Shown here in pieces: positions 22,442 to 64,000 of a DNA stretch of 64,000 bases (position 1 is its first letter; every line of letters begins with the position of its first letter). The translations under genes were made by a program, and so were the position numbers. Below the pieces are notes generated by a model. It was not told where the DNA came from, made no database searches, and was given only the letters and a program-made list of their open reading frames with translations. Source of the DNA: Isoetes taiwanensis (taxonomy: Eukaryota > Streptophyta > Lycopodiopsida > Isoetales > Isoetaceae); assembly GCA_021234155.1 (NCBI GenBank), contig JAJEKV010000081.1, forward strand, positions 124,001-188,000. The letters run 5' to 3'.

Positions 22442-24657
22442 TGTGACGCTTTTTACAAAATATACGGCGCCCGGCCGTACACTCCATAGGAATTCCCCCA
22501 TCGGGTCCTTCGACCGCATGGGCCTTCCGTCTATCCCGCACTCCAGGGTATCCCTAGTGCTGGAAGGGGACACGAAGGTGTCTTGTGCACCCTTCCCCTA
22601 TGGGCTCCTATCACAGCAGAAGCATAAACAATGTCAGAACTAGCAATAACAATACATCACGCTACCTCGAAGGGTAGTACATCCACACATCCATAGCTAC
22701 AACAGAGATAAACATATGCCGTAAAACATGTGAGCTTCTACCTAAGACTCAGACTCATGGGGAGGTAGATTGACGGCTAGGTCTAAAGATAGAGCAGACT
22801 GAGTCATAACAATAGCAGAGCTGGCTATAGACAATGGCTAGGGTTGACCACTCCATCTGCCCCTCCTGTGCATACGTTGCAGATGGGCTAAATTGGGCTC
22901 TGGCATGACTCTAGCCTTCCTGATACGCAATCTCATGGCATCACCCATCAAGACTACTCCGGGTTGCATCTCCCCGGTCCGTTGAGGCAGGAAGGGTTGC
23001 ATCTCCCTTTTCCCGGGGTCTAGAGGTTCCTCGGGCGGCTAGAGAATCGTGGTGACGCACGATTCGTCCCCGACTTAACCCCCCAAAACAAGAGCCAGGC
23101 CAACACATGCAGCTCTTGAGAGGCAGGGCAACACCATTGCCCCAGGAGGTGTCAGACCCATGCCCCGCCCACACCATCGAAAAAATTAGTGGCTAAACTT
23201 AGCTAAATGGCGAAATTTTAGCCTTGTTTGAAAAAACATTGGCTAAACTATGGCCCTTTTTGGGCTAAAAAAAATAAAATTTTAGCCAAGTCTATTTCAC
23301 GCCCCACCTCCATTTCGTCCAACTTTAGCTAATCGCAAGAAAGTGTAAGTGCCAAAATTTGGAAAGTTTAGCCAAAACTTAGAAGCTTTTACGTCAAATT
23401 TTAGTGTACTTTAGCCAAATTAACTTATAGCCTTTATATTTATTATGGTCAGTTAATATTTCAGTCTTAAATTAGTGCAAAATAGTCAAAAGATAGAAGA
23501 TTTTTTCTTTTTTAAATAACAGTTTAGCCAAACGTAAGAAAGTATAGGTGGCAAAATTTAGAAAGTTTAGCTAAACATTAGAAGCTTTCACCTCAAATTT
23601 TGGCATACTTTAGCCAAGTCTATTTCACCACTTTGAATATAAAAGTTCCTTATGTCCTCATGGATGCTGCCAATGTGGCATGACGTAAAAATACTATCTA
23701 TCTATCTATCTATCTTAATTTTTTCCCTGGCCCACACGAAGTGACCAGCCATAAGCCTAGCCCGCTATGAGGTCCCAAGTAGCGACGCTCAGCAGAGACC
23801 CTCCCTTCGTATCTCCCCTAGCCCCGTTATGTAGTGCTGAGTCACATCATAGCCCCCGTAGCCCGGTGGGTTCCTATGCACAGGCTGCATAATAATAGGA
23901 ACTAAAGGGTCTAACTAGGAGCATTACTAAGTAAGGCTACTAGGTCTTTACCCCCCTTTCCAATACAAGAGGAGCAAACATGATCAACCATCATCATACA
24001 ACTTCATATCATGATAATCATCAGAATAGCATCTAACCTAATCATACATATCTAACTTACAGTTAGGGTTCCTTGATTAGGGTTCAAGATATTGAATGAG
24101 GGTTCTAGGATGGCTCTACTCTAGATACGATCTACTACCTCATCTGGAGTTCTAACTTCCAGATGAACTACTAAGAATACTACTCCAAATACCTGCTCCC
24201 GAAGCGCTCCCTCCCATTCCTGGCGTCTCCATGATCCTCGAAGCGATCGATGCTGCGCTCACTCCAAGATCGTGCGTGCACTCTGGAGCTGCTGCACTAG
24301 GCTATGCCACAGCAGACGACGCTCGAAACGGAGTTTCGAGTGCGAAGAAGGTTCCTAAGGTGTTAGGGCTAGGAAAAAAGATCTAGGGTTAGGGTTTAGG
24401 TTAATATAGGTTAGGGTCCACATGGGATGATACGTGGCTCCACGTGGCTCTAATGGGACATGGCCATGTGGTGGTTGCCCAATAGGGTACGACCATGTGG
24501 GAAATGGGCCTTATCCTAAGGTTATCTAAGTTATATATATAACTTAGATATGCACCCATGCCACTTCCTAAGGTATACAAGGCTACGAAGTAGACTTGTA
24601 TAGTGACGTACCTGGAAATATACGTATTTATAGTGTATATTACTCTGGAACGTCACA
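22442..24657 (-). repeat. Gypsy A 3' LTR (about 1.65 kb plus a nested insert)
   Basis: The ends are TGTGACG...CGTCACA. It matches the solo LTR at 37008-38467 and the fragment at 13066-13911. On the - strand it is preceded by a polypurine tract (24658-24672), which fixes it as the 3' LTR of a - strand element. A 555-bp insert at 23175-23729 explains most of its extra length. Telomere-like AGGGTTAGGGTTTAGG lies near 24386. No matching target duplication is seen at the 22442 side. Confidence 0.85.
23175..23729. mobile_element. 555-bp insert flanked by 8-bp direct repeats, SINE-like tail
   Basis: GCCCACAC occurs at 23167-23174 and 23730-23737, and LTR sequence resumes across it, so this is a clean insertion with an 8-bp duplication. 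The body is AT-rich with repeated GGCTAAA / TTTAGCC motifs and resembles 31610-32190. The right end has the same ATGCTGCC...TGACGT.AAAATA(CTAT)n tail as the SINE at 10938-11158. It may be a SINE-like element with a different head, or a non-autonomous DNA element. Confidence 0.75.
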
Positions 24658-24672: not shown

Positions 24673-25211
24673 GACAATGCTATCCTCAGCATTGCGCTAA
24701 GGTGACGAACCTACACTATCCCTGCAAAAACAACATAAGTATACAACTTCAATTTAACTGAAGTGATCAACTTCCTATTAAACAGTTAATGTGTAATATA
24801 GGCTACATTTGTACTTATACAAAATTATATAGCCGTAACAAGGTTACTCCTTATAATAAGTCAAAACATTATCACAAAAGTTATTAGGGTTCATAATTTA
24901 AGTCTAAATCATGGCTCCCCATCTCCACGTAATGCGCTCCTCCTCGATGCTCCCCTCTCACTGGCCTGCACGAGTAGCACATTACGTTAGTTTAGTTAAT
25001 AAGTTTGTGGTTTTAGGGAACCACCCCCCTAATTACCTCCTCGAGCCAAACTACTAGCTCAAGCTTACCCTACTACCTTGCACTCGATCATGGCCCCATA
25101 AGGATTTGAGCTTAAGAACCATTTAAGATGATCCTATCATTGCCCATGATCAAGTGCTACCTTGTACTCGATTCCCGTGGTCGAGTAGTGCTTCATGCCC
25201 CCGAGGGATTA
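24673..25211 (-). other. Gypsy A 3' internal region, proximal part
   Basis: Non-coding DNA between the PPT and the inserted 9.2-kb element. Phrases such as GATCCTATCATTGCCCATGATCA resemble GATCCCATCATCGCTCATGATCA at 34455, beyond the insertion. This supports one element split in two. Confidence 0.65.
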
Positions 25212-25240
25212 GAGTTTTTTTGAGAGGTCAAATAAGGGCC
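25212..25240 (+). repeat. Left terminal inverted repeat of the 9.2-kb element
   Basis: GAGTTTTTTTGAGAGGTCAA, then ATAAGGGCC. It pairs with 34404-34430 with one 2-base indel. It is preceded by TA. Confidence 0.75.
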
Positions 25241-25439
25241 TTGTAAGAATATATTAGGGGGGCCGCCACGTAGGATCCCGAACCTAGCTTTCCCCCCTCC
25301 ATACCTAACTTTCACTCTCCCCTATAACCTAACTACCTAACCTCCGAACCTAACCTCCGAACCTAACTTTGCAATCATTATTTCGTAACGACCTGAATAT
25401 TTGATGATTACATCTAAGATTTTCATTTTCTCACCATCG

Positions 25440-25530
25440 AGCTTCAGCGCCATCGAGCTTCATCGCCCTCGCGCCATCGAGCTTGCCATCGCGCCATCGA
25501 GCGCCAACGATCTTGCCATCGCGCCCAAGC
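25440..25530. repeat. Short tandem repeats (GCGCCATCGAGCTT)n
   Basis: Several imperfect copies of GCGCCATCGAGCTT and GATCTTGCCATC. The motif makes both strands look coding for about 90 codons (25401-25712 + and 25444-25683 -), which I treat as artefact. Confidence 0.7.
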
Positions 25531-25554
25531 ATTGTTTGAATTCGAATTATGGCG

Positions 25555-25604
25555 GATTCTTGCCAGCAAATAGAGCGAAATTTCTCTGTTTGTTGGCAAG
25601 AATC
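25555..25604. repeat. Hairpin with 21-bp arms and 8-nt loop
   Basis: GATTCTTGCCAGCAAATAGAG (25555-25575) pairs with 25584-25604 at 19 of 21 positions around the loop CGAAATTT. It lies about 50 bp upstream of the first gene of the element, so it would fall in that transcript's 5' leader. Confidence 0.8.
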
Positions 25605-25651
25605 TTCCTAATTCTAAGCTCCGCTCCGGTTCTTGGTCTTTTGCAACGTCA

Positions 25652-26294
25652 ATGGCAAAGGTATTTGGTTTCCGAGTTGTCATTGCATTCCTTTGAGTGT
25701 TCTTGGTTCTAATACTTCTGTTTCAGGATCAAACTAATTTCGAGGGTCAATTTAGAGTGCAAGTGCCAAAAGGATGCCTGCCTTACAGGAATAAGTTCAC
25801 TTGGAAGCAACCAATAGATGAAGATGCATTGCGAGCTTCTGGAGCCATGAATATAGACCTCTGGGCTAAAGGCCAACTGTATCCTTGTGATCCTTTCACT
25901 CGAGCCCATCCAAACTTCCACTCTGCATCCGGTCTTATTGAATTTGCTTGTAAGGGACAGCAAGGGTTACTAGGTTACTGTAATAATTTGGTTAATGGTA
26001 ATACTGATCCACATTTGCGTGCCATGTATAACCACTTTATCAGATGTTAATCAGCTCCAACAGACGAACTACTTTCTGTCTCAACAATGCCGCAAGCTCA
26101 ATGAATTGGAGGTAGAAAATCAGAAATTGGTGACGGAGATGAAATCACTGCAGCAAGGAATAAAGAGGGTTGCGCAAGAAAATGATTCCCTTCACAAGCG
26201 AGTCAAACGCTTGAAAAGAACTCCACTGGGGATCAGGGAGAGGGCAAGAAACCTGAAGCCCATAAATATATTAGCCCATGGGGGTGGAGGCTAA
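25652..26294 (+). CDS. Unknown coiled-coil protein, first gene of the 9.2-kb element
   Basis: I propose a short first exon, ATGGCAAAG (25652-25660). An intron runs 25661-25726 (AAAG/GTATTTGG to TTTCAG/). The next exon, in phase, reads DQTNFEGQFRVQVPKG, then KFTWKQPIDEDALRASG and LWAKGQLYPCDPFTRAH. Near 26040 the frame must shift. A second open frame continues with DVNQLQQTNYFLSQQCRKLN and a clear coiled coil rich in Leu, Glu and Lys (LEVENQKLVTEM, KRVAQENDSLHKRVKRLKR), ending at TAA about 26292-26294. The shift may be a mutation or a very short intron (GTAATA..ATCAG, about 47 nt). I recognise no family. The basic coiled-coil end could dimerise or bind nucleic acid, but this is conjecture. Confidence 0.5.
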
Positions 26295-26306
26295 AAAAAA
26301 AGGGTC

Positions 26307-26832
26307 ATGGCTATTAAAAAGCTTGTTGATCCAAATCTTGCAGCCCGTTTATTAAAGAAATTAGTTACTAAAGATGATGTATTGAGAATGTTAAAGCTTC
26401 CTGGTAGCATTCAACTTAGGAAAGCTGTAGTACAACAACTGTTGCAGGAGTTGGGGAACAGTCAAACCTCAGAATCAGTGCAAGAACTGTGTGACAATGT
26501 CGGAATAAGTAGGCAAGCTTATATTGCTTTGTTCAGATGCTTGCAGGATGGCCTTAAACAACAAGGCATTACCAAAACTATTCTACTACCAAGGATGGCT
26601 AGTGTGAGGACTTGTAGGTCATCGAGAAACAGACAAGTGCAAGAGCTTCTTGGTGATATGTATCAGCTGACCAGCAGTGTCAATTTGGATACATTGCCAT
26701 CCTATACCAAAGGTAAGAAGAAGTCGAAGTTTGGTACAGAGGTTCAGTTGCGAATTCCTTACAGCAGATGTGTCAATGGTTTTACAGAAGGATCGAGTCC
26801 AAATGGGTGAAGAAATCACGGAACCAGAGTGA
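26307..26832 (+). CDS. Unknown helical protein, second gene of the 9.2-kb element
   Basis: Starts at ATG 26307, 12 bases after the previous stop and just past a run of nine A. Exon 1 is 26307-26712 and ends AAAG/GTAAG. The 3' site TTACAGCAG/ leads to exon 2 at 26768-26832, ending at TGA. The join is in phase and gives 156 residues. Visible features are MAIKKLVDPNLAARLLKKLV, then KDDVLRMLKLPGS (a DVLRML-type helix), a helix-turn-helix-like stretch VQELCDNVGISRQAYIALF at about residues 60-80, and a basic region near RTCRSSRNRQV. An alternative frame across exon 2 (26768-26983) encodes a Lys/Arg-rich 71-codon stretch, so splicing could add a basic tail instead. Function unknown. A DNA-binding role is only suggested. 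Confidence 0.55.
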
Positions 26833-27074
26833 ATCAACACTTGCTAAGTTGTTTAGACAAAAAACCCAGCGGAAAAAAAAGAGGGAAGCTTGGTATAAGT
26901 CCGCAGCTGTTGAGCGATCAAGGGAGTGGAGATCAATGAGATGTAGGCAAGGCAAAGGTTATGTCCGTATTGAGAACTCTTGATAATGTCTCTACTGTAA
27001 AAGAGTTGGTTTATTTATCAGTTCGATAGTGCTCAATGTACGAAATGCTGTATTGTAAGTAAACTGGATGCATG

Positions 27075-27392
27075 TATTGCGCATCGTGGCCACGGTGCAA
27101 AATAGGCCCTTCAATAATTTATAACTGAGTCGATTTCGAACCGTGGCTACGGTGCGAAATAGGCCCTTCAATAATTTGTAACTGAGTCGATTTCGCACCG
27201 TGGCTACGGTGCGAAATATGGGCCTGTAACTAAACTGGATCCACGTATTTTGCACCGTAGCCACGGTGTGAAATAGGCCCTTCAATAATTTGTAACTTAG
27301 TCGATTTTGCACCGTGGCTATGGTGCGAAATATGCCCTTCAATAACTTGTAACCGAGTCGATTTCGCACGTGGCTACGGTGCGAAATATGGG
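27075..27392. repeat. Palindrome cluster 1: TTTCGCACCGTGGCTACGGTGCGAAA units
   Basis: About six imperfect units, each an 11-bp inverted repeat (TTTCGCACCGT / ACGGTGCGAAA) around a 4-nt centre GGCT or AGCC. The units are separated by about 30 bp of AGGCCCTTCAATAATTTGTAACTGAGTCG. They directly follow the + strand gene pair. Confidence 0.88.
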
Positions 27393-27642
27393 CTTGTAAC
27401 TAGAGAATATTAACATATTAGAGAACATATTAATATATTAGAGAACATATTAACACGGTATCATATGAATTATGTATGATAGATAGCAAAGGTTACTAGA
27501 GACCACGGCAGTATGTCCCTAGTAACCTTCCCCTAGGTTCCTAACACCTTCCCCTTCCCCTTTTCCTTCCCCTGCGAGGGGTAACCCACGCAGCTGGATT
27601 AGGAAACCAGAGCTCACGCGTATCCCAGCTTGATTCTTCCCA

Positions 27643-28137
27643 CTATATGGGGTACCTAGTCATTAGAAAAAGTAATTCCGCGTGATGATACTCACGGAAG
27701 AAGAGCGGACTCAACTCCACAAAGTTGTTGTACTCGTTATAGTACATCCTAATAAGGCCATACATCTGTCCCTTACAAATTTCATGAATGAACTCTGATA
27801 TGTATTGATCCAGAGAGTATGCTAAATAACCAGCACGAAGAAGAGGCCTCAATTGCTGTAGCATCTCGTCCAAATAAGGAGGGGGTTCAAGAATTCCCCT
27901 CATTGCAAGTCTCTTATAACATTCAGATGGATTAATTTCCATCAGTGGCTCATGACCACAATCAAATCGCTCCAGAATGAAGTTGATCAACTCCATTGCA
28001 AGCTCCTTGGTGGGACTGTGGTGCAACCTCCACTCCAAGAAATGGTCAAATAGCTCATCAGTTTCAGGCCGCACAGAATGCCTGGGACATGCTTGCAGGC
28101 CTTCTGGAGTAGCCCAGGGAGGATTGGGTCCAATCAT
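27643..28137 (-). CDS. Unknown 164-residue protein, paralogue 1
   Basis: Single open frame from ATG 28137 to TAG 27643-27645. The longer frame upstream is minisatellite read-through, so I use this start (MIGPNPPWATPEGLQACPRH). Predicted to be mostly helical, with FDHFLEWRLHHSPTKELAME, then LINFILERF, and LEPPPYLDEMLQQLRPLLRAG, then YLAYSLDQY. A second, diverged copy of the same protein lies at 29154-29701. No family is recognised. Conservation of the core between copies (ELA..LINFI, GILEPP, AYSLD.Y) suggests past selection on protein sequence. Confidence 0.6.
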   Translation of the reverse strand: MIGPNPPWATPEGLQACPRHSVRPETDELFDHFLEWRLHHSPTKELAMELINFILERFDCGHEPLMEINPSECYKRLAMRGILEPPPYLDEMLQQLRPLLRAGYLAYSLDQYISEFIHEICKGQMYGLIRMYYNEYNNFVELSPLFFREYHHAELLFLMTRYPI

Positions 28138-28139
28138 TT

Positions 28140-28660
28140 GCAAAAGCAAGCAAGGATCACCGACGGAGCAAGGAACAAGGAGCAGAGCAAGGAACAAGGA
28201 GCAAGAAGCAAGAAGCAAGGAACAAGACCAAGTAGCAAGGAGCACGAAGATTAAGTAGCAAGGAACAAGGATCAAGATCAAGTAGCAAGAAGCAAGGAAC
28301 AAGGAAGATCGAGGAGCAAGAAGATCAAGGAACAAGGAAGATCATGGAGCAAGGAAGCAAGGAACAAGATCAAGTAGCAAGATCAAGAGCAAGGAACAAG
28401 ATCAAGTAGCATGAAGGAGCACGAAGATGAAGTAGCAAAGAACAAGGATCAAGATCAAGTAGCAAGGAACAAGGAAGACCAAAGACCAAGAAGATAAAGG
28501 AACAAGGAAGATCAAGGAGCAAGAAGCAAGGATCAAGATCAATTAGCATAGAACACGGAACACAAGGTGAGAAGTGAAAGCAAGGCGAGAACACGAGAAG
28601 TGAAAGCAAGGTGAAAACATGGAACAAAGGTGAGAAGTGAAAGCAAGGTGAAAGAATTTA
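28140..28660. repeat. Purine-rich minisatellite (AAGGAACAAGATCAAGTAGC)n
   Basis: Imperfect tandem units of about 10-20 bp built from AAGGAACAAG, GATCAAG, AGTAGC and GAAGC. It begins three bases upstream of the start codon of the - strand gene at 28137, so it would be its 5' leader or promoter. Confidence 0.85.
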
Positions 28661-28786
28661 TAGCTACGAATCCAATAATGTTGAAGTATAATACTAATAC
28701 TGTTGAAGTATAATACCAAGAATGTTGAAGAATAATACCAATAATGTCGAAGAATAATACCAATAATGCTGAAGTATTATACCATT

Positions 28787-28955
28787 CGATGGTGGCGAAA
28801 TAGGCCCTTCAATAATTTGTAACTGAGTCGATTTTGCACCGTGGCTACGGTGCGAAATATGGGCCTATTTTCGCACCGTAGCCACGGTGCGAAATAGGCC
28901 CTTCAATAATTTGTAACTGAGGCAATTTCGCACCGTGACTACGGTGCCGAATATG
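28787..28955. repeat. Palindrome cluster 2: TTTCGCACCGT units
   Basis: About three units of the same inverted repeat as at 27075-27392, including TTTCGCACCGTAGCCACGGTGCGAAA near 28868. They lie between the minisatellite and the second - strand paralogue. Confidence 0.85.
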
Positions 28956-29153
28956 ACCATAGAACAATCACATGAGAAAATACAAGGAAAATGGTAGAAG
29001 AAATCATTCAATTACACTAAAAGTGTAAGATTGCCAAGATAATACATGATAATATAAGGATGTTACTTAATTACACGGAAATCACTTGCCTATATACTTA
29101 ATTTCTATGAAAATCTTTATACCAGTTTATACACATATTCCAATGGAGTATCT

Positions 29154-29701
29154 TTACCTGTGATATGTACGTATTATGTGCTGTGTGCTATGTAGCCATA
29201 GGTCACGTGTGTCCCAAGGAATTGTATCCCAGGTGGGGAATTTAGATAGTAACCACAGGATGTTGAAGTCAAGGGAACAGATTAGGAGCTGGCCAATATC
29301 CACAAAAGATTTGTGATGGAAGTTGTAAAGTTCAATGAGGATATAAATCCTATTCCTTTCACTAGTAGGAATGACCAGAGGCACATAGTGATCCAGAGAG
29401 TAGGCCATGAAACCATGGAAAAGCATGTCCTTCAACTGTTCTAGCCTATCTTCTAAATCTGAGGGGGGTTCAAGAAGTCCCAAAGCACTTAGAGTGATCC
29501 TTGCAGTGGAGGGAGATGATGAGTATAGCGATCGATAATGAAGTTGATCAGCTGCCTTGCAAGCTCTGTGGTTGGACCGTGACGCCATCGATGCTCCCAA
29601 AAGTTGCTAAAAAATTCATCAAAAGTGCACGTATTTATTCTGCCGCATGCTTGCAGGTATTCCGGATCAGCCCAACGAGGATGTTCTTGCAAAGTTACCA
29701 T
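29154..29701 (-). pseudogene. Unknown protein, paralogue 2, one frameshift
   Basis: ATG 29701 opens MVTLQEHPRWADPEYLQACG, then FFSNFWEHRWRHGPTTELAR and LINFIIDRY, parallel to paralogue 1. The frame breaks near 29510. The adjoining frame continues LGLLEPPSDLEDRLEQLKDM, then HGFMAYSLDHYVPLVI, to TAA at 29154-29156. The C-terminus (FPTWDTIPWDTRDLWLHS) extends about 25 residues beyond paralogue 1. The frameshift makes this copy a likely pseudogene, unless it is sequence error. Confidence 0.6.
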
Positions 29702-29709
29702 TTGCAAGA

Positions 29710-29855
29710 AACTAGTGGAGCAGATAAGGAACAACTAGTGGAGCAGATAAGGAACAACTAGTGGAGCAGACAGGGAGGCAAGGAGCATGCAAGAAAGGAG
29801 CAGACAGGGAGGCAAGGAGCAACAAGAAGCGGACAGGGAGGCAAGGAGCATGCAG
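29710..29855. repeat. Minisatellite upstream of paralogue 2
   Basis: Three near-identical 22-23-bp units AACTAGTGGAGCAGATAAGG, then units of GGAGCAGACAGGGAGGCAA with AGGAGCATGC. It sits about 10 bp upstream of the start codon at 29701, the same arrangement as paralogue 1. Confidence 0.85.
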
Positions 29856-30048
29856 ACAACGACAATGAATGCATAGATGCCTATTTAAAGAGAAACCAGG
29901 TATATATACTATATACGTACATTATATTTACATGTGTATTTTGTGCATTATGCTCGTATATATAACCAATAATGCTGCTACATTGCATGTCAATAATTTT
30001 GTTCGATATAAGTACAGATCCATTCAATGCAGAAGGCATCCATTTGCT

Positions 30049-30279
30049 ATGTCTCGGCCTGGTTATTCTTATTACAGGGGGTCTACCTTGCCTCCTCGTC
30101 CCGAAGATATGGACTCCATTACTTGCACTATGACATATAATGATCTTTATAGATGTTCTCAGAGGGGTATCCCCCTTGATCCCTGGCTGGAAGGAGTAGC
30201 AGAGGGTCGAAATCGTTCTTCCAACGGGTTTTATCGTGTTGCTATCCACCTATCGGGTTCCAGAGCATCGCGTCTATGA
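30049..30279 (+). CDS. Small open frame of 76 codons, unknown
   Basis: ATG 30049 gives MSRPGYSYYRGSTLPPRPED, then CTMTYNDLYRCSQRGIPLDP and GFYRVAIHLSGSRASRL, stopping at TGA. It faces away from paralogue 2, across an AT-rich 190-bp stretch that could hold a divergent promoter. No family recognised. It could be an exon of a longer gene. Confidence 0.35.
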   Translation: MSRPGYSYYRGSTLPPRPEDMDSITCTMTYNDLYRCSQRGIPLDPWLEGVAEGRNRSSNGFYRVAIHLSGSRASRL

Positions 30280-30534
30280 GATTAATTGCATCACTCAACT
30301 ACCTGCTCATGATGATCTCGATTGCGAATGAACTTCTGCATTCATGTATGCTATGCCTCTTATATGAGTTCTAAATTCTGTTACTAGAATATTTCAGACA
30401 TTCGCTAGTTATATATAAGTATGTAACCATAAGTGATACATGTGATCCATCTGTTTACCGCATATTTTCAATTTGGAAAGCTCTTGGCCATTTTTCTTAC
30501 ATGTAGATTCTAAATTCAGATAAGCATTCTCTTC

Positions 30535-30850
30535 CGCGGTGTGTGGAGCGATGCATTTAGCACCGTGAAGTTACGATGTAAATTGCGCCCCAAAAACTTT
30601 GGAACTACTATTTTTTTCCGTGGCGGCGACGCGCGAAAATAGACCTTCCCACAAAGTGTGGAATAGTCATTTTCGCACCGTGACGACGGTGCGAAATAGA
30701 CCTTCCCACTAAATGTGGAATAATCATTTACGGTGCGAAATAGACCTTCCCACTGAATGTGGAATAGTCATTTTCGCACCGGCGACGGTGCGAAATAGAC
30801 CTTCCAACAGAATGTGGAATAGTCATTTTCGCACCGTGCCCACGGTCAAC
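30535..30850. repeat. Palindrome cluster 3: TTTCGCACCG(TG)nCGGTGCGAAA units
   Basis: About five units of a variant inverted repeat (CATTTTCGCACCGTGACGACGGTGCGAAATAG) separated by ACCTTCCCACTAAATGTGGAATAGT. The spacer differs from clusters 1 and 2 (ACCTTCC instead of GGCCCTTCAAT), so the clusters amplified independently. Confidence 0.85.
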
Positions 30851-31003
30851 ACTAGTAGATAAATACACAGCCGCAATAAATAGAATAGCAAATAATTACA
30901 GATAAATATAAAACACTCATAACCATAAATATTAAAAACACTCATATATTAACAACCAAAAACACTCATATATTAACAACCCAAAAAGGGTTACAAAAGG
31001 ATC

Positions 31004-31603
31004 CTAGGGGAGGCATCCACGGAAGTATCTAGCTAAGGCATAGTCCCTATCCTGCACAGTAACACGTCCTCTATGCACACAACAGCGGACACTATCCTCA
31101 AAGAGGCTAATTAGATGAGCCTCTGCTGCCTCTTGCAGTATATCCAAGGCCTCTGCTTGGATTCTATTCATCTCCTCCTCCACCATCGGGACGAAGTCTG
31201 CTGCTCTGTCCGTCCTCTTCCTCCTTGCTTCCTTCCTCCTGTCAATAATGGCACGCATCTCCGTGCACGACCATTCTAGCCAAGGCAAGCTTGGGAATCG
31301 AGGTCGGGTGCGTGCACACAAGACCCTAATCTCCCTTAAAGCCTGAGTGACAGGAGGAGCACCCTTTATCTTTTCAGGGCCACCATATCTAATACTAGGC
31401 TCCCCTTCCTTCGGCTTCCGCTTATTCCCAAGCTTATCTGTCTCCTTGGCTGCATCTCTCTCAGCTTGTCTCCAACTAGGAATAAGCTTAGGAGGCTTTG
31501 CTTAGGGTCGGTTTCTTCTAGTGGATTTTAAACACGCATGGGCTTCCCTAGTACCTGCTCCATTTGGGCTTTTGCCTGCAGTGATCAACCTGATCCTGCT
31601 CAT
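31004..31603 (-). CDS. Divergent histone H3-like protein encoded in the 9.2-kb element
   Basis: H3 is a core nucleosome histone in the nucleus. On the - strand, residues 85-93 read VTQALREIR (canonical H3: ..VALREIR, helix alphaN). Residues 156-169 read LQEAAEAHLISLFE (canonical LQEAAEAYLVGLFE, alpha2). Residues 176-196 keep the VHRGRVTVQDRDYALARYFRG pattern against [21 protein letters not shown] (loop 2, alpha3). SLPWLEWSCTEMR (105-117) sits at alpha1, and about 28 extra residues, rich in Arg and Lys, separate it from IQAEALDI, so loop 1 is greatly enlarged. The N-terminus from ATG 31603 (MSRIRLITAGKSPNGAG) is basic. TAA at codon 34 breaks the frame. An in-phase intron from 31554 (GCAG/GTACTAGG) to 31450 (GATGCAG/) would remove it and leave 164 residues. 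It is either an expressed variant or a decayed one. Confidence 0.72.
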
Positions 31604-31609
31604 GGAATA

Positions 31610-32195
31610 ATTTAAGGGCTAAACTTAGCTATTTGGCGATTTTTTAGCACATTTTCAAAAACAATTGGCTAAAGTAAATGGAAAAAATTGAGAAAAAAAA
31701 TATAATTTTAGCTTAACTTTTTTTGGGACTGCGCCAACCTTGGAGCTCTTTAGCCAAACGCTAGAAAGTAAGAGAGTGAAATTTTGTATTGTTTAGCTAA
31801 ACCATAAGAACTTTTGGAATGAATTTTGGGCTAGTTTAGCTCGCATCATTCTAGTTTATATGAAATATATGATTAGTAGTTTAGTTTCTAGCATTATGAA
31901 TTAATTTGAGTAGTAGACTTTGCTAATTAGCATTGTTTTAGAATGTTTTCACAAAGAAAATGACTAAAATAAGTGGAATATATTGAAAAAAAAGTATAGT
32001 AATTTGGCTTAATATTTTATGTTGGCCACACCATAGAAATTTTTGGGATGATATTTGGGTTAGTTTAGCTAAATGCTAGAAAGTATGAGAGGAAAAATGT
32101 GTACAGTTTAGCTAAACCACAGAAAGTTTTGGGATTAATATTGAGCAAGTTTAGCTAAAGTCATTATGGCTAATAAGAAATATGCGATTAGTAAT
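31610..32195. repeat. GGCTAAA-rich dispersed repeat
   Basis: AT-rich sequence with repeated GGCTAAACTTAGCTA, TTTAGCTAAAC and AGCCAAACGCTAGAAAGT phrases, matching the body of the insert at 23175-23729. It starts about 8 bp upstream of the H3-like start codon. Target duplications were not identified. Confidence 0.6.
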
Positions 32196-32589
32196 TTATT
32201 CCCGATCCTGGCGAGCATCTTTGGTCCTGGCGATCTTGTCGTCTTTGGTCCTGGCGATCTTCTTGGTCCGGCCCATCCTGGCCGATCATCTTTGGACCGG
32301 TGATCTTGATCATCTTGAACCGGTGATCGCGATCATCTTTGCACTTCCATATCTGGCTGGCGCCTCTAGCACTTGTTCCTCCCCCTCACCACTGCCTAAC
32401 ATTTGGGAATGTAGTGGTGGTCCCAACGCTGATGACGAGGGGGTTACCTGATTCAGCAGCCACTGGGCACCATGGCTCTGGTCAACCCGCCACAACACCT
32501 GGCCGTGTATAGAGGGGCCCTGTGGTTTCATCATGTAGTAACAACCCTTCAATATCTTATTGTATGTACAATTTAAGACCGTGGGCTCG

Positions 32590-32750
32590 GTCGGTCTCTC
32601 TTCCATTTTTATGTTGTGCACATTTTTGCACCATGGCTACGGTGCGAAAATGGCCCTTCCATATTTTATGAGATCCACAATTTCGCACCGTAAGTACGGT
32701 GTGAAAACACATCCGCAATTTATGTTGTACATAATTTTGCAACATGGCTA
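32590..32750. repeat. Palindrome cluster 4 (decayed)
   Basis: Two or three decayed units, for example TTTTGCACCATGGCTACGGTGCGAAAA near 32623 and TTTCGCACCGTAAGTACGGTGTGAAAA near 32681, with the GGCCCTTCCAT-type spacer. Confidence 0.75.
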
Positions 32751-34403
32751 CTTTAAGTCTTATATAATCCAACGAAAGCAAATATTTGCAATTAATATAC
32801 AATAGATCTCCAATTAACAATCACTTATATTTATATTAGATAGATTCATATACAGATATGACTTTGGGTGGCATGCATGATCCCAATTTATAGCATTCTT
32901 CTCTGCGCTTTCCCACCTTACGGCTAGTCTATCATGAAATGGAGGAAATTTAAGTCCGTCTCAAACTCTAATTGCCACCGAACATCGAATAGAGACCACT
33001 TCGCTCTCAACTCTCGACTTTTGAACAGTGATTATCCTTATGAATGTTCAAGTCTATGACAACGGAATGAGTGCCATCATTATCATCTTGTTCTCATGAA
33101 TCGGGCGTTTTTCTTCCTTCCGCGGACATTTAAGCCATCTCCTATACTTAAAAGTGACATACAAAGTTTGCTTCGAATGCAATATCATGAAAACCGTGTC
33201 TCGACTTATCCATTCGGTACATTTTGCTCCCAGAGCACTCCAACCTTCAAAAATACACTATCTAAAAACTATCCACCCATTTGAAGGCGTAAACATCTTC
33301 AAGGTCTTCTTTACATTGTCGGCTCTTGAATATGGCAATGAACGAGATCAATTCCTAAATTTACCTTCACATGCCCTCCTCCTCCTTCTCCTTCAATGCA
33401 CCGAACATTTTCTTGCGACAACTTACCGTGCTAATAAGATAGAAGTGGCATCGAGGCTGCGGTATAATCGGACAGTGGGCAATGGAAGCTCAATTAGCTT
33501 GGATCTTAGTGGAGAGTATTCATACCTCGAACTATATACCCCTTTCTACGAAATATGTCTTGGTGTGCTATCTTGAACAACAAGCAGCCAATACCTTGGT
33601 TGAAAGCAATGGAATACACTACTTATCAAGTGTGAAGAGGCGATGTTCTCCACATCGGATATACACAAACTGAGAGAATAGGAATGAACCGGATAAATGG
33701 CGAACTAATTTAAATATGGATTGCATAGAAGTGCATACTCACAATTTGCTTCTAGCAGTGGGAAAGTTAGGTAAAACTTGCTTATTTTTCTTTTGCCATA
33801 TACATTGGAGTGTATACATGCCTTACTTGTACAAATATCTCTTTGCACGATCGAAATTCGACCACCAAAACCTTCAATGTGAAACATCATTTCTCTCTGC
33901 ATCTTTTTGACTTCGCCATTCACCTCGCATTGCGGGGTTGGAGTGTAACAAAGCTCCGGTCGACACCACGAAGCTTTCAAAGTCATTTTCAACTGTGATA
34001 GAGCTTATAGCCATCTAGTCACAGAATTCAAATCAGAAGGTGGAGCAGAATCGAAATACTAGGAAAGACTACGCGATTTTACCTTGATCGAAGTTTTTCT
34101 GTGGTCGAAACTCCCTTTGGCGCAGGTCGAAGCAGCTCCCGAGCAAACCGAAGCTCCCTTGGCGCGGGCAATCGATCTTCGCGCAAACTCTGTTGAGAAA
34201 AACATCTGAGCGGGAATTGAGGGCGGGAGCTAACGGTCATAATTGCCACGTGTGTAATCTGACACCCGAAGCTACAAGCACGTATATTACCGAAGCTACG
34301 TTCAGTTGACACCTGGAACGGCCAAACCAAGGCTCGATAAAAAAGTTCTTTACAAGATCGGCTCCCCATTGGCCGCAAGCTTTTTGACGTGGCATCAATT
34401 AAG
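32751..34403. other. Right part of the 9.2-kb element, no supported gene
   Basis: Open frames at 33154-33576 (+), 33705-33992 (-) and 34079-34378 (-) have no recognisable domain and overlap each other on both strands. The last 330 bp have repeated GAAGCTCCCTTGGCGC-type phrases, loosely like the repeated motifs near the left end. Confidence 0.4.
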
Positions 34404-34430
34404 GGCCCTTATTTGACCTCAAAAAAACTC
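34404..34430 (-). repeat. Right terminal inverted repeat of the 9.2-kb element
   Basis: GGCCCTTATTTGACCTCAAA, then AAAACTC, is the inverse of the left end and is followed by TA. Gypsy A internal sequence resumes at about 34431. Confidence 0.75.
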
Positions 34431-36805
34431 TAATGGTTTTAAGCTAGGGAATGTCTCATGATCCCATCATCGCTCATGATCACTTATACCTCACCGTGAC
34501 CCCCCTATGATCAGGTGCGCGTGCCCCGCATCGTGGCATAGAGATCATCCGACAGATGTCCCATCATCGCCCACCATACCTAACTTCCTCTCTCACATGA
34601 CCCTCCTGGTCATGTGCACCCTTGGTGCGTGTTGGCCTAGAGAATGCCTTTGAAGCGTATCCCATCATCGCCTACACGTCCAAGATCCTGGCACATGCAT
34701 CTTACTGACTAGAATGCATGTGCCTTACTCAAGCTAACTAAGAGCACACTAAGCTAAGCACCTGGCAAGTCGGCGTCGACAAGATCGGAGACGACTCGCC
34801 CATCAAACTCCCTCATGAAGTCCGGGTACTGCTTCTCTAAATCTTGCTTCAATACCCACGTTGCATCTTACACGGGCAAGTGCTTCCACTTGACCAAATA
34901 TTGGAGCAACTGAGACCTCCTGGTCTTCTTGAATGCCTTATCAAAAAGCAATTCAGGCACAATTTCAACTTGTTCCTCCGTCATTTTCAACAGGGTTGGA
35001 GTTTCCAAAACCCCATTAGGATTTGGGTTGTGTCTTTTTAAGACGTTATGGACTTTGAGGTGCGCTGGAAGATCTAGCTTGTAGGCCTGGGTGCCCACCC
35101 GGTCCAAGATCTTAAAAGGACCACCTTAAATTCCCTTACGGTCCTGTGCCTGTCGGCTACACTCTTTTGCCGACTTCTTGTTGCTAATAAATATCCCTTA
35201 TCTCTTCAACCAGCTGCTGCATATCTGATAGCATTTGCTGGGAGACTTCTACCTTTGACACTGGGTTGTGCCATGTATCAGGGGTCAGGCACTAGTACCC
35301 ATAATTAATCATGAAAGGAGACATCTGCGACGATTCCTGCTTCGTGCTGTTGTAGACGAACTCCACTAAGTGGATGAAATCATCCCACTTAGACTGTTTA
35401 TTCCAAACATAATTTCGTAGCATGTCTTCAATGATTCTGTTGGTGCGTTTTGTCTGACCATCCGTCTGAGGATGATAGACCGTGCTCATGGAGAGCTTGG
35501 TCTGGATGGTGCTAAACAAATCCTGCCAGAATGCACTCATAAATTTTGAGTCTCTATCCGAGATTATCTCACGAGGCATGCCATGGAGTCTAAAAATCTC
35601 CTTTGTGAATAAGACGACGGTGTCTAGCGTCGTATCTATGGTTCTACAAGGCACAAAGTGTGCCACCTTGGACAACTTATCCACAACCACCATCAATGCA
35701 TCCTTGCCTCTTACAGTTCTTGGGAATCCCGTAATGAAATCCATACTCATGACTTCCCATTTTGCATTTGGCACGGGCAATGGCTCTAAGGCTCCTGGGA
35801 TTCGGAGTTTCTGACACTCCCGAACATATTTGGCTATCTGTTTCTTCATGCCTGGCTAGAATTAACTACTTCTTATCTTGAAATATGTCTTCATGAACCC
35901 CGCATGCCCGGCTATGGGACTGTTGTGTGTATCGTGGAGTATCAGCTTCCTTACTCCCGAAGATCCTGGTACACACAACTTATTCTTATGATATAGCAGG
36001 CTACCTTCCTTCTTATAATGCTTGAAGGTCTCCCTTTCCTTATCTGTTCTTGCCTTTTTAGAGAGGCTTGCCCATAGCTCCTTAAAGTCGCCATCTGATG
36101 GCAATGTTTCTTCAATCCTCTTGCCATACTCACTTGAGAGAGTCGATATGGCATTGCAATGGGTTCTTGTCTCGAATGGCCTTCTGGAGAGGGCATCTGT
36201 AACTACATTCAACTTGCCAGGTTTGTAGACTATTTCGAAGTCGTACTCTTCGAGAAACTCCATCCACCTCCTTTGACTTAGATTTAGGAGTGGTTGCATG
36301 AAGATGTACTGGAGACTTTGGTGATCTGTATCTAGTTGGAACTTTCTTCCCAACAAATAGTGTCTCCAGATTCTCAAGGCCCTCGCAATGGCCAAAAGCT
36401 CTTGGTCATGAGTCGAGTAGCATTGCTCTGCATCATTCATCTTCTTGGAGTCGTATGCGACTACTCTTCCTTCTTGCATGAGGATTGCTCCTGTTGCTAG
36501 CTTGCTAGCATCTATCGCCACTAGCTTATCCTTGCTTGGATCCGGTAGGATGAGGACCGATGCTGTGGTTATTGCCTCTTTGAGCTTCTCAAAGGAGGCT
36601 TGGACATTCTCGAACCAAGCCTTGGTGATGTCCAATAGAGGGGACGCCCACTTAGCGAAGTCTTTCACGAACTTCCGATAATACCCTACCACGCCGAGGA
36701 AGCTTCTTACTTCGCCCACTTTCCTTGGTGCCGGCCAATCTACTATGGCTTCAATCTTTGCCGGATCAGTGGAGATAGATGTCACTACATGACCCAAATA
36801 GCATT
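34431..36805 (-). pseudogene. Gypsy A pol (end of reverse transcriptase to chromodomain), truncated
   Basis: On the - strand from 36805: the reverse-transcriptase end [20 protein letters not shown], then [14 protein letters not shown]. RNase H follows ([59 protein letters not shown]). The integrase zinc region ([15 protein letters not shown]) and core (SMDFITGF, IISDRDSKF, QTDGQTKRTNR) come next, then RVGTQAYKLDLPAHLKVHNV and a chromodomain start (LQYLVKWKHLPV) near 34868. The third catalytic position of the DDE triad reads Lys where Glu is expected. A stop lies near 35860. The 5' half of pol and gag are absent: at 36805 the sequence switches to 11S-globulin DNA. Its 3' LTR is at 22442-24657. 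Confidence 0.88.
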
Positions 36806-37002
36806 CGTACTTATTACTATAGCATCGAGTTGGCAATGAAAGAGGAAGGTAACATTGACAAAGAGACGAAAAGGCGAAGGGTGATATCCCTCGCCTTAAG
36901 ATTCCTACCGATGTGGAAGAAAGCAATGCCAAGTATCTCTACCCGCTCTTCTTGGTCATTGTAAAACTAAAATGCATGTCCGCAAGATATGGCCCTTATA
37001 TG
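36806..37002 (-). pseudogene. 11S-globulin-like copy 0, downstream fragment
   Basis: About 200 bp matching 40795-40985 of copy 1 at the part encoding FWFYNDQEE-type and ILGI-type cupin sequence. Here the Trp codon is TAG. The fragment is cut by Gypsy A pol at 36805 and by the solo LTR at 37008. Confidence 0.75.
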
Positions 37003-37007
37003 GAATT

Positions 37008-38467
37008 TGTGATGCTCTCGATGAAATATACGACGCCCCATCGTATACCTCTTGGGAAATCCCCCATTCGGCAAGGTCTGCCACACTTGCCCTCCATCTA
37101 TCCCGTCTTGGGATGGCCCGGACACGGGAAGGAGACACGAAGATGTCTTGCGCGCCTGTCTCCTATGGGCTCCCATACAGCAGAAGCATAAATATAAACA
37201 TCAGCACTAGCAATAACAATACAAGCATCTACCTCGAAAGATAGTGCCATCCATCCATCCATAGATCCATCATAGACATCAATATGTCATCCATCACATG
37301 ATCTCCTACCCAGGCTCAGATTCATGGGGAAAGTAGACTGACAGCTGGAGTCTCGAGATAGAACAAACTGAGTTTATGACAATGACTTGGTTTGGCAATA
37401 GACAATGGCTAGGATTGACCACTCTATGCGCCCCTCCCATGAATGCTTTGCAGATACGATGAATTAGGCTTTGTTATGACTATAATCTGCCAGAGATATA
37501 ACCCCTTGATGTCACCCAATAAGGCTACTCCGGGTTCCCCTGTCCGATAACATAGGAAGGGTTGCATGTTCCCTTTCCAGAACCCAGTGGTCTGATAGGT
37601 GGCTGCAGGATCCTGAGGACGCACGTCCTTACCCAAATGAACTCCCCAAAACAAGAACCAGACCAACACTTGCAACTCTTATGGTCAGGGCGACACTATA
37701 ACTAAAGGGTCTAAACTAGAACCATCCTCTACACAAGGCTACTAGGTCTCTAACTCCTTTCCTAATACAGGAGGTGCAAACATGATCAACCAACATTGTC
37801 TACCCACATAACGCGATAAATAATAAGAATAATATCTAATCCTAATCGCATGCACCTAACTTACAATTAAGGTTCATTGATTAGGGTTCGAGATCCAAAC
37901 TAAGGGTCCTAGAATGGCTCTACTAGAGATACATGATGCTAACTCATTTGGACCTAACTTCCAGATGATCTACCAAGGAAACTACTCTAAATACCTACTC
38001 TAGAGGATCTTCCACCTGCTCCTGGCATCTCCATCGCTCTGCGAGTGGTTTGAGGTAGCTAATGTGCACATGCTCCTAGAGCTGTTGTGCTATGCTATGC
38101 TATGCTATGCTATGCTATGCTATGCTACGTTGCAGTAGACGATTCTCGAATGGAGTTTTGAGCGCGAACAGGGTTCTAGGACGGTTGAAGAAGAAGAATG
38201 GCATAGGGTTAGGGTTTGGCCATTAGTAGGTTCGGGTTGCCATGTCATGCCATGTGGCTCCAATAGAGTGCATCCATGTGGCAGGTTGCCAATAGGATGG
38301 AACCATGTGGAAATAGTTCCATACCTACGGTTAGCTAAGTTATGTATGATGACTTAGCCATGTTCCCTTCGACACACTAAGGTATACAAGGCTAGTAAGG
38401 TAGGCTTATATGGTAATGTGGCCTAAAATATACATATTTACATCATATATTTTAGGGGAACGTCACA
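37008..38467 (-). mobile_element. Solo LTR of Gypsy family A (1460 bp) with GAATT target duplication
   Basis: The ends TGTGATG...ACGTCACA are flanked by GAATT at 37003-37007 and 38468-38472. No internal retrotransposon DNA is attached, so this formed by recombination between the two LTRs of a full element. It interrupts an exon of an 11S-globulin-like gene. It contains a (CTATG)n run at about 38088-38127 and telomere-like AGGGTTAGGGTTTGG near 38206. Orientation is set by comparison with the 3' LTR at 22442-24657. Confidence 0.9.
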
Positions 38468-38747
38468 GAATTGACTTCTCTGAGCAATGATGACACCTAT
38501 GATTCCATAACCTATCACGATGGTCCTCAAGCAACCGACACTGGAACATAAAGGAGACCAATCCATTAGAGTCAACGGCAATTCGATCTGCATTGAATCC
38601 AAACTTTTCTAGCATTGAGGACTCTTCCATATTCTTTCTCTGTAGTCTACCTCCCTCACTCTCTATCTCAGTCCTTGGCTGTCGAGCTTGGATAATGCCT
38701 TAGAGAAGAAGGACAAGAACGGCAATTAGGAATTTGTGCATGGCCAT
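38468..38747 (-). pseudogene. 11S-globulin-like copy 0, N-terminal fragment
   Basis: ATG 38747 opens MAMHKFLIAVLVLLL, a signal peptide like that of copy 1, but TAA at 38700-38702 interrupts it. It continues GIIQARQPRTEIESEGGRLQ and SGFNAD-like / NGLVS blocks until the solo LTR at 38467. The gene lost function through at least the stop and the LTR insertion. Confidence 0.8.
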
Positions 38748-39513
38748 TTCGCTTGCAGAATCGTACGTTGCCTTTGGCGGAGGACAAGAGGCCTAGCCGC
38801 CAATCCAATTTCACACCCCCATAGCATGTTAGTCACCTACAAAGGCTGCACACATGTACATAAATTGCTTGCCATCAGTAGTTTGACTGGTAGATTAATG
38901 AGTTCATGTCTTCTACGTTTGAGACTCAGAAATAAACAAAATTACCAAAAAATGCATGTAAAAATATGATGTTTGATTGCTAAAACAACAATCTAGATTT
39001 CTTCCCCCCTTTTTTTTTGTTTTGTTCTATAACTGATGCAAAAAATTGCATGCAACAAAATCTATAGATGAGAGTGCGATCTTCTCAATGGAAGCAAAGT
39101 TGGAATCTTCAAATTACAATCTTTTCATTAAGTTATCTAAAAAACAACTCTAACGACCCTCAAACATTTCTTTTTTGTCACGTAAGCTTCAAACGTTTAT
39201 TGAGCCAATGAGTATGGGTAAGCTGCTCGATTGTTGATGCTTACTTTTAAGCTAGGTTTCATATGGATTTCACGTGAATACTTAACATGCCCTTTAAATG
39301 TTGTTGCAACTTATGCAGAGAAAACCACGACAAAGCAAAGTAAAGACAAAGACTACATGAACGCAAGAACATGATGTCAAATATTCTTTCCATTGGACAT
39401 CATCATATGTAAGTCATATATTTTTCATGCTCGACAACATGTTGTGTACTTCGATAGGCACACCACCACATTACAAATGGTGATGGAGAGGAAGAATGAA
39501 GCATATAGAAAAG
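38748..39513. other. Former promoter of copy 0 and 3' flank of copy 1
   Basis: Sequence up to about 38935 matches the region upstream of copy 1 (41290-41600), for example CTTGCCATCAGTAGTTTGAC, then TGGTAGATTAATG. The remainder is the 3' flank of copy 1 and includes the TCAAATATTCTTTCCATTGG block that recurs at 20079. No gene. Confidence 0.55.
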
Positions 39514-39835
39514 CTATACAGAGCTTCTCCTCTCCCTAGCTGGAAAAATAATTGAATCGCTTGGGCAACGAGATGATAGCTCCTCAGCCACCTCTGTGCT
39601 TGCTCCGAGCACGCTCAACAAGACATCTCTGGGAATGCATGCATGCACGAAATTGCCTACAACAAGAAAGGACGTCGTAGGCTGTATATTCGACATTAGG
39701 AGAAGACAAAAACAAATGAATGGAGAAAGTGAGAAGGGAGGCAACGTGCAAGTTTGAACAATCAATGAAAGTGCAGTGTTGGTTTATTGATCATTATTGA
39801 TCCCTTCAAACGAGTAGAACCCCTCCTCCTCGGCG

Positions 39836-39952
39836 AGCAACACATGAGTATGGGATCTAGGGATCAATGCAAGGTCTCCCTGCCTCACTTCATCGGCGAG
39901 CAACACATGAGGATGGGATCTAGGGATCAATGCACAGTCTCCCTGCCTCAGT
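39836..39952. repeat. 63-66-bp tandem duplication inside cupin 2
   Basis: Two near-identical units (GGCGAGCAACACATGAGTAT, then GGGATCTAGGGATCAATGC and so on). In translation the strand VRQGDLALIPRSHTHVLLA is repeated directly after LRQGDCALIPRSHPHVLLA. An extra copy in the middle of a beta-barrel would probably disturb the fold. The noisy second copy of the locus (61030-61150) has the duplication too. Confidence 0.85.
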
Positions 39953-40064
39953 TTCCCTTCGGCGACCCTTTTCCCATTGCTCGAAATGACCTCTAGCCCC
40001 GTGGATCCTTGGATGATGTAAACGATTTTGTCACCATTATGGACGTAGTTTGGTGCAAACATGG

Positions 40065-40635
40065 CTCTTTGACAACATGAAGAAGAAAGCACATGTAAGT
40101 CAAACCAAACAACTCAGGAAACATGGCTTAGCACCCCCTCTACGCTCCGTCCCTAAAGCAACATGCTCACCCCTTCTAAGCGCAGATAGTGTGTTGCCAT
40201 ATGCAAATGTGCAAAAAAGGGCATCCTTCCACTGTTCACGTCATGGGGATCTCTGTCGTTTCTCACTCTGACCTATGGGAAGCCTGCCCGGAGCTGGTGA
40301 ACAAGGTGGATAGCACGTAGGTTCAATATGGACCTTTGTGGCTGCATATCCTGTAAAACATGGCTCTCTAACGTCATGAACAAAAACACATGCATAAGAT
40401 AAACCAAACAACTAAGGTAACATGGCTTAGCACCCCCTCTACCCTCCGTCCCTAAAGCAATATGCTCACCCCTTCTAAGCCTAGATAACGTGCTGCCATA
40501 CGCAAATGTGCCAAGAAGGACATCCTCCTGTTGTTCACCTCGTGGAGCTCTCCGCCATTTCTTACTCTGAACTCTGGGAAGCCTGCCGCGAGCTAGTGAA
40601 TAAGGTGGGTGGCACCTATGTTCAAGATAGATCTT
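40065..40635. repeat. ~290-bp tandem duplication between cupin blocks
   Basis: 40070-40335 and 40370-40632 align closely: AACATGGCTTAGCACCCCCT, CATATGCAAATGTGC against CATACGCAAATGTGC, and GGGAAGCCTGCC. It covers a stretch between the cupin 1 and cupin 2 blocks, probably intron plus exon edge. The same duplication is seen at about 61280-61850. Confidence 0.8.
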
Positions 40636-41358
40636 TGTGGCTACATATCCTGTCTAGAGACCTTGATAATTCTAGTTTGGTTTTGTTGCCTCTCGACCAA
40701 CTCCCGCACACTTTGCTCAGAGATGTCCCACGCTTGAGGTAAAGCATGCGGGCTGAAGGCAGTGGCGACATTGAAGAGGTCAGAGTCCTGCATCCAAGAA
40801 CAACATGTGTTCGTAATTTATTACTATAGGATCGAGCTGGCAATGAAAGAAGAAGATAACATTGACAGGGTGGCATCCCTCGCCTTAGAATTCCAGCCGA
40901 TGTCGGAGAAACCAATGCCAAGTATTTCTCCCCGCTCTTCTTGGTCATTGTAAAACCAAAATGCATGTCTGCGAGGTATGGCTACACATTGCCCTCCCTT
41001 ACACGAAATTGACTTCTTTGGCTAATGGGTGCAGTAATGACACCTATGATTCCGAAACCTCTCACAATGGCCCTCAAGAAATTGACGCTCTGGAACACAG
41101 GGGAGACCAATCCATTAGACTCAACGACAATTTGATCTGCGTTGAATCCAGACTTTTCTAGCCCAGGAACTCTTCCCTATTCCATCTCTCTAGTCTACCT
41201 CCCTCACTCTCTATCTCAGTCCTTGGATGTCGAGCTTGAATAACGCCATAGAGGAGAAGGACAAGGACAACAAATAGGAATTTGTGCATGGCCCATTTCG
41301 CTTGCAGAAGCATTTGTTGCGTTTGACAGCGGACAGGAGGCCTAGCCACAAGGGCACT

Positions 41359-41400
41359 CTTTGTATAGACGTCAATAGGCCGTTGCATGCACATGCATGG
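41359..41400 (-). promoter_or_regulatory. RY (CATGCATG) motifs and TATA-like box upstream of 11S copy 1
   Basis: TGCATGCA (41384-41391) and CATGCATG (41392-41399) lie about 100 bp upstream of the start codon. In the - strand sense they read GCAGCCATGCATGTGCATGC, close to the legumin box that B3 factors (ABI3/FUS3 type) bind in seed-storage promoters. GTCTATACAAAG (about 41359-41370) could be the TATA box. The same motifs are kept at 62585-62602. Confidence 0.65.
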
Positions 41401-63890: not shown

Positions 63891-64000
63891 GTAAACACAA
63901 TCTTTATGATAGAATTTTCAACTTGAATTGTCTTCTTGTTCTTCATCTTTTTTGGTTCATACCGGTTGTTTTTAGACTCAATAATAATTCGTGTTAATTT

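Follow-up and report, generated by a model that had tools for sequence, protein, structure and literature searches.

An H3-fold gene with an enlarged loop 1 inside a TIR-bounded transposon of Isoetes taiwanensis

Within the window, a 64,000-nucleotide stretch of the genome of Isoetes taiwanensis (presumably an aquatic quillwort), a histone H3-like open frame lies inside an internally deleted copy of a transposon that we call element A. The borders of this copy were placed by combining pairs of TIRs with the limits of homology to other copies, which starts at 34435/34436 for L022 and L023 and stops at 25224 for L021. The features of the copy, in window coordinates, are as follows.

25207-34435, no strand: transposon copy (element A), internally deleted, 9.2 kb, from homology limits and TIR pairs
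25207-25240, + strand: TIR of type CATTAGAGTTTTTTTGAGGTCAAATAAGGGCC, here with GA for CA and a 2-base insertion
25697-26735, + strand: putative transposase, N-terminal portion of the gene (the L027 frame has 797 aa)
26735-26736, no strand: junction where the putative transposase gene lacks ~1.2-1.3 kb (7552 to 8815 in L012; 8434 to 9688 in L020)
27054-27402, no strand: palindromic repeats TTTCGCACCGTGGCTACGGTGCGAAA
27643-28335, - strand: A4b ORF, no known family
28789-28955, no strand: palindromic repeats TTTCGCACCGTGGCTACGGTGCGAAA
29154-29600, - strand: A4a ORF, no known family, paralogous to A4b
30624-30846, no strand: palindromic repeats TTTCGCACCGTGGCTACGGTGCGAAA, directly 3' of the H3 gene
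31004-31501, - strand: H3-fold open frame with enlarged loop 1, 165 codons and stop
31262-31299 (approximate), - strand: frameshifted stretch inside alpha1, from alignment with four other copies
31601-32304, no strand: insertion of ~0.6-0.7 kb splitting the N-terminal tail region, a collinear gap relative to L011, L012, L015 and L017
32305-32539, - strand: upstream A3/tail coding region that other copies preserve
32539-32540, no strand: junction at which ~2.7-2.8 kb (region of partner genes A1/A2) is missing relative to L011 (412 to 3103) and L019 (338 to 3135)
32620-32707, no strand: palindromic repeats TTTCGCACCGTGGCTACGGTGCGAAA
34404-34435, - strand: opposite TIR

The initial annotation, made from the letters alone, had read a series of H3 landmarks in the frame at 31004-31501, and their order was confirmed. 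A profile search matched the frame to the Pfam family Histone (PF00125) above the family cut-off (E 1e-12, 48.8 bits, cut-off 26.4), and another copy, L017, matched the same family at 2.9e-14. The closest solved structures in the PDB were those of H3 (1.4e-11), followed by Schizosaccharomyces pombe Cnp1 (5.6e-11). Alignment with four other copies further showed that a 1-base deletion near 31299 and a 1-base insertion near 31262 scramble part of alpha1 in the window copy, the frameshifted portion falling between LREIR and MRAI. The TAA at codon 34, which had been proposed to lie in an intron across 31450-31554, likewise derives from an indel and most other copies examined read on through the site, and the intron was therefore rejected. 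An AlphaFold model of the damaged copy was poor (pLDDT 67.8, pTM 0.30, central helices merged), which we count against the main explanation developed below. Upstream, homology to other copies ends at ~31600 and restarts at ~32305. The intervening insertion consists of two diverged repeats (31602-31883 and 31896-32198), resembles a stretch at 23175-23247 and is perhaps a small non-autonomous element. The window copy is thus a dead, internally deleted element.

The assembly (1,658,258,908 bases, 1,110 contigs) was searched with a 30-base TIR pattern at up to two mismatches, which returned 382 matches (185 forward, 197 reverse) and none for the reversed control. The shortest convergent TIR pairs enclosing H3 matches span 12.95 kb (C930), 12.99 kb (C937) and 14.65 kb (C907); the remaining pairs are longer, up to 37.7 kb (C974), and perhaps hold nested insertions. 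TIRs thereby bound repeated copies of element A, as expected of class II, and the proposal that the H3-like gene lies within a transposable element was upheld. No repeat indicative of a TSD was visible by eye at ten end pairs; the members of some lie far apart and perhaps do not belong together. A 12.3-kb element at C243 contains an A2 match and no listed H3. When its flanks were joined, they matched many genomic sites (40 scored of 1581 candidates), the two best being 91% identical over 282/282 bases and the others off by a few bases; the equal length of the two best suggests insertion without target-site duplication.

Read in the sense of the H3 gene, the order of genes is A1 and A2, A3, H3, and A4a/A4b (40% identical to each other in other copies, 3e-40), with the putative transposase on the other strand. 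Element A is therefore a TIR-bounded Isoetes transposon in which an H3-fold gene lies opposite a putative transposase of ~800 aa. The latter is termed putative on the basis of size, position, copy number and lineage structure: the 797-aa frame of L027 had no transposase family among 11 weak Pfam hits at E up to 1, a PDB search with a limit of E 5 returned nothing, and no relative was found among the viral contigs searched. Assignment to CACTA, considered for the CACTA-like palindromic repeats, was rejected on the termini, the absence of a visible 3-bp TSD and the lack of a Pfam transposase match. In C930 the 797-aa frame is open, yet the H3 carries a TAA, a further point that we count against the main explanation, and among the copies examined none combined an intact H3 with an intact transposase.

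Other mobile sequences were observed elsewhere in the window. Long direct copies at 36398-42813 and 57640-64000 are 88.5% identical over 6.6 kb and are adjoined by Gypsy-like integrase/RT ORFs at 35292-36932. ORFs at 5992-9128 resemble a Copia-type polyprotein by eye, and tandem-like repeats at 44994-46613 (~340-base spacing, 82-85% identical) overlap a 188-aa ORF.

The A-type H3 is a repeated gene, with at least 150 matches in the genome (150 scored of 5257 rough candidates, some being two pieces of one copy) spread over many contigs; canonical host H3 genes are numerous and separate from the element copies. Matches at C1049:11717764-11734140 and C1041:10802811-10808780 are clustered at 5-11 kb spacing, possibly as tandem or nested elements. 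Among the first 40 listed, 26/40 had no stop and 14/40 had stops. Random stops in all copies together with dN/dS near 1, the pattern that the initial annotation had named as contrary to its reading, was not what the selection test returned. Across 35 copies (15 at hand and 20 added, 19/20 of the latter without a listed stop, so that intact copies are over-represented by choice), pairwise dN/dS was 0.42, and 0.418 for the 34 copies other than that of the window. Changes were then split into shared and singleton classes relative to the commonest codon of each alignment column, a simpler procedure than a codon-model fit. Those common to two or more copies gave a dN/dS of 0.287 and no stop, and singletons gave 0.73 and five stops. 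Because shared changes are more constrained than singletons (0.29 vs 0.73), the H3 was under selection during element spread; the pattern is one of selection in the propagating lineage and release after insertion.

Relatives of the transposase were examined with a search for its core, which yielded 102 matches (94 scored of 3396 candidates), many at 57-73% identity and several of the diverged ones with long open frames. Partner A2 likewise has a diverged group (about 53-60% identity, 159-aa frames). In one such sister element, L101, an H3 fold stands at the expected place, 57% identical over 54 residues of alpha2-alpha3, with alpha1 directly upstream beyond a frameshift. This second H3 type, A', is present in many copies in one frame (25/31 first-listed without stops; the fold is open throughout in L103) and is 37-46% identical to A copies. 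Co-segregation was assessed with 94/102 transposase matches, after removal of 8 second fragments, together with 233 H3 loci; the latter set excludes second fragments, A copies recurring in the A' search and some weak last A' matches. At 78% identity or above, 21/41 transposases had an A-type H3 within 12 kb and 0/41 had A', and below 78% identity 18/53 had A' and 3/53 had A, the chance expectation of an H3 neighbour being 0.34% per transposase match. Where A' lies nearby, transposase identity is 59-73%, with a single case under 65%, and most of those below 65% have no listed H3 nearby. We count against the main explanation that 20/41 close and 32/53 diverged transposases have no listed H3 within 12 kb; such cases may represent fragments, copies left unscored or elements devoid of H3, and the H3 may accordingly not be essential, or it may be unscored or lost. 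Judged by these associations, transposase and H3 types co-segregate and the H3 evidently diversified together with the transposase. The initial annotation had offered either capture of a host gene or a chromatin protein of the element's own. Because both the gene and its loop insertion are common to two diverged transposase subfamilies, the second is favoured, and recent passive capture is disfavoured.

The loop interval, counted from the VR of alpha1 (CR in A') to the R before alpha2, is 33 residues in A, 31 in A' and 10 in canonical H3, as compared to 11-12 in CENH3/CENP-A. The insertion thus amounts to 23 residues in A and 21 in A', at the same place and basic in character (pI 9.9 for the A insert, 10.6 for the A tail). 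An enlarged, basic loop 1 had been claimed and holds; the claimed excess of ~28 residues does not, the measured value being 23 (33 vs 10). The tail proved as unlike that of canonical H3 as had been claimed: motifs of the ARKS/AKKS/RTKQTA/TKQT type, counted in any frame, occur in 8/8 host H3 loci, 3/15 B loci (described below) and only 1/29 A loci, the sole one (L061) lying by its look in a shifted frame. On this contrast between A and host H3, the A protein lacks the canonical modifiable H3 tail (K4/K9/K27 context) and shows no recognisable canonical tail start. The groups B and C differ in that C has PRKSG, a K9-like context, and some B copies are likewise ARKS- or PRKS-like, which weakens a general "no K9" idea.

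A tree of 19 folds was built with IQ-TREE from an alignment that contains six hand-entered reference sequences and retains the loop-1 columns common to A and A'. A and A' join at 90/94 on long branches apart from H3 and CENH3; plant CENH3 forms its own group (91/89), with A and A' outside it, in a tree that holds no Isoetes CENH3; and B and C cluster at 90/84 within the part that holds host H3. Only two branches exceed the strong-support mark and, given also the shared loop columns and the hand-entered references, the tree does not fix the origin of A.

The H3 folds of groups B and C came from a search with a CENH3 query, which returned many long frames (150 scored of 6966 candidates). Canonical and element-borne H3 dominate the 150 scored matches, and none of these could be recognised as Isoetes CENH3. 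Five frames were read; all have C-terminal H3 folds without the loop insertion behind a new N-terminal region, and they form two related groups, B and C. B is a protein of 463 aa in L079 and L080 with a strong match of its fold to Pfam (3.2e-41), and it is carried by a 13.2-kb LTR retrotransposon at C1031:17239108-17252266. The LTRs are 92.6% identical, and TG..CA ends, the TSD GACAT and a tRNA-primer-like site are visible by eye. Pfam domains above cut-off comprise gag, RVP_2, RT_RNaseH, Integrase_H2C2 and Chromo, with RVT_1 (26.4 bits) under its cut-off of 29.6, and by this domain content the element is a chromovirus Gypsy retrotransposon. The H3 ORF sits between the 5' LTR and gag (L079-L085, C1031:17238200-17256390), and a second ORF without known family is also present. 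The LTR had 41 matches including the query site (40 scored of 9229 candidates), 23/41 continuing past the LTR into the leader that precedes the H3 ORF and 18/41 being confined to the LTR. The N-terminal part of B was matched in 150/150 scored candidates (of 3548), with a stop inside the match in 17/150.

Selection on B was estimated from 17 copies taken from long open frames (L080 was left out and L091, with a frameshifted fold, was kept). The fold had a median dN/dS of 0.043 (ratio of sums 0.113, median dS 0.47) and the N-terminal part a median of 0.118 (ratio of sums 0.115, median dS 0.65). By these estimates the B fold is under strong purifying selection, tighter than that on A when medians are used. 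In group C (L081, L082), an H3 fold was observed behind an N-terminal region with the similar motifs IPYPLF and FFPPEG, together with a partner ORF. Finally, the partner genes of A were compared with those of B. The A1b domain scored 27.7 against the ORF2 region of B (maximum of 22.1 in 100 column shuffles, 23.6 for the reversed control), and the scores of A2, of A4, and of A3 compared with the B N-terminal part were reached by 11/100, 9/100 and 12/100 shuffles, respectively, and hence are not beyond controls. A common origin of partner genes is suggestive for the A1b domain only, given that the comparison was prompted by a motif resemblance noticed by eye. The data suggest either convergent or shared use of H3 in A and B.

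How might such a protein serve its element? Deposition of CENP-A is specified by its loop 1 and alpha2; the loop stands out from the nucleosome, and its region serves chaperone and reader recognition. Plant transposon silencing uses H3K9me2 and H3K27me1. Against this background, our main explanation, to which we give about an even chance, is that the A-type H3 pairs with host H4 in nucleosomes and acts as a self-encoded chromatin variant that aids the element. It would enter nucleosomes on or near the element, where, with the tail missing, methylation at H3K9 and H3K27 would find no substrate and the protruding loop 1 could direct deposition or recruit element proteins, so that the variant would keep the element active or guide its insertion. 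A broader version is more tentative, and we place it somewhat below even: that both mobile-element classes in Isoetes keep private H3 variants as selfish chromatin, the TIR element as a lineage with an enlarged loop 1 and the chromovirus as a fusion with an H3 domain, the two perhaps having a partner protein in common. Variant nucleosomes would then shield the element from silencing that acts through the tail, or label it for machinery of its own, and loop 1 would represent a transposon-evolved deposition code.

The main rival to this nucleosomal reading is that the H3 fold is non-nucleosomal and belongs to the transposition machinery: as a histone-fold subunit that binds DNA or nucleosomes alongside the transposase, it would choose sites for insertion or bridge the ends. 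The association of the H3 with a transposase lineage, the basic loop and tail, and the multiple palindromic repeats of the element, which a DNA-binding protein could read, are all consistent with such a role. We nonetheless consider it unlikely, although it deserves more weight than any other rival, as several residues for H3-H4, H3-H3 or DNA contact are kept by eye and an H3 fold is also in use in a retrotransposon, an element of a different class, which favours a role in chromatin over one tied to a single transposase. The kept contacts are the R before alpha2, the H and RVT of loop 2, and the D and L of alpha3; closer to the C-terminus, other such residues differ.

That a host H3 entered the element by transduplication and then multiplied with no function, as a passive passenger, is improbable. 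Two fungal studies supply a precedent, hundreds of H3 copies in a hAT element inactivated by RIP (PMC6710886; see also PMC3538342), and both the stops in 14/40 first-listed A matches and the more nearly neutral singletons (0.73) would fit it. A passenger would not, however, be expected to show a dN/dS of 0.29 for shared changes, nor to track two transposase subfamilies with its loop insertion intact, and the separately maintained H3 fold of the LTR retrotransposon (median 0.04) also argues against it. Similarly improbable is that the A-type H3 derives from CENH3 and remains CENH3-like, steering the element to centromeric chromatin or protecting it there. The enlarged loop 1, the LIP in alpha1 of most A copies, the (Q/T)A(E/D)AL at alpha2 (both judged against plant CENH3) and the position of S. 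pombe Cnp1 as second PDB hit recall CENH3, but A and A' stand apart from both H3 and CENH3 (90/94, long branches) and the copies lie on many contigs. Host-domesticated H3 variants sitting by chance in dead transposons, as the state of the window copy might suggest, are very improbable indeed, since copies are dispersed, tied to TIRs and transposase, numerous, co-segregating and separate from canonical host H3 genes.

Among known systems, the nearest to A are hAT elements carrying H3-like ORFs in Pyrenophora tritici-repentis (PMC3538342) and in Pseudocercospora fijiensis and relatives, those of P. fijiensis being RIP-inactivated (PMC6710886). The fungal elements resemble A as TIR DNA transposons with an H3-like ORF beside the transposase in tens or hundreds of copies, and differ in their hAT transposase and in H3-like copies described as recent captures. 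Element A, in contrast, has a plant host and a putative transposase without a Pfam match, and its H3 is deeply diverged, carries a conserved loop insertion of 21-23 residues, shows selection and has diverged in step with the transposase; no hAT Pfam match was obtained for it and no 8-bp TSD was seen by eye. Viral histones, including bracovirus H4, single viral histones and giant-virus histones, offer a second parallel, that of a mobile genome with a core histone gene of its own; bracovirus H4 has an extended tail and is believed to enter host nucleosomes (reviewed in PMC9145170). Element A differs as a chromosomal transposon with a single H3 fold only, and no capsid or other virus family was matched among ten of its frames scanned with Pfam. 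CENH3/CENP-A shares with A a divergent H3, a longer loop 1, a new tail and an AEAL-type start of alpha2; A departs from it in an insertion of 21-23 as opposed to 1-2 residues, in being multicopy in transposons and in falling outside it, on long branches, in the tree without Isoetes CENH3. B has the chromodomain integrase architecture of chromovirus Gypsy elements by its Pfam domains, and differs from other chromoviruses in an extra 463-aa protein that ends in an H3 fold. Chromovirus chromodomains read histone marks, and the VANC proteins of VANDAL elements are transposon-encoded anti-silencing proteins. VANC counters host silencing, as proposed here for A, and unlike A is not a histone.

In the open-access literature searched, we found no report of H3-carrying transposons in plants, of H3 in LTR retrotransposons or chromoviruses, or of a long-maintained, diverged transposon H3, and the word "histone" is absent from the main text of the two Isoetes genome papers. 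H3 in transposons is already known from fungi, and the functional reading given for A may be categorically new. There is also a practical consequence for annotation, as transposon-borne H3 could pass as host histone genes. Repeats that match plant proteins were removed from the repeat library of I. taiwanensis (PMC8566536), and H3-bearing elements could as a result be annotated as histone genes.

In eukaryotes, transposon silencing is written onto histone tails. If the main explanation is true, a transposon with its own tail-altered H3, long under selection, would be a direct counter-move against that silencing, and would also amount to a natural experiment on what loop 1 of H3 can encode. The presence of H3 in two element classes of one genome suggests that mobile elements can use private histones.
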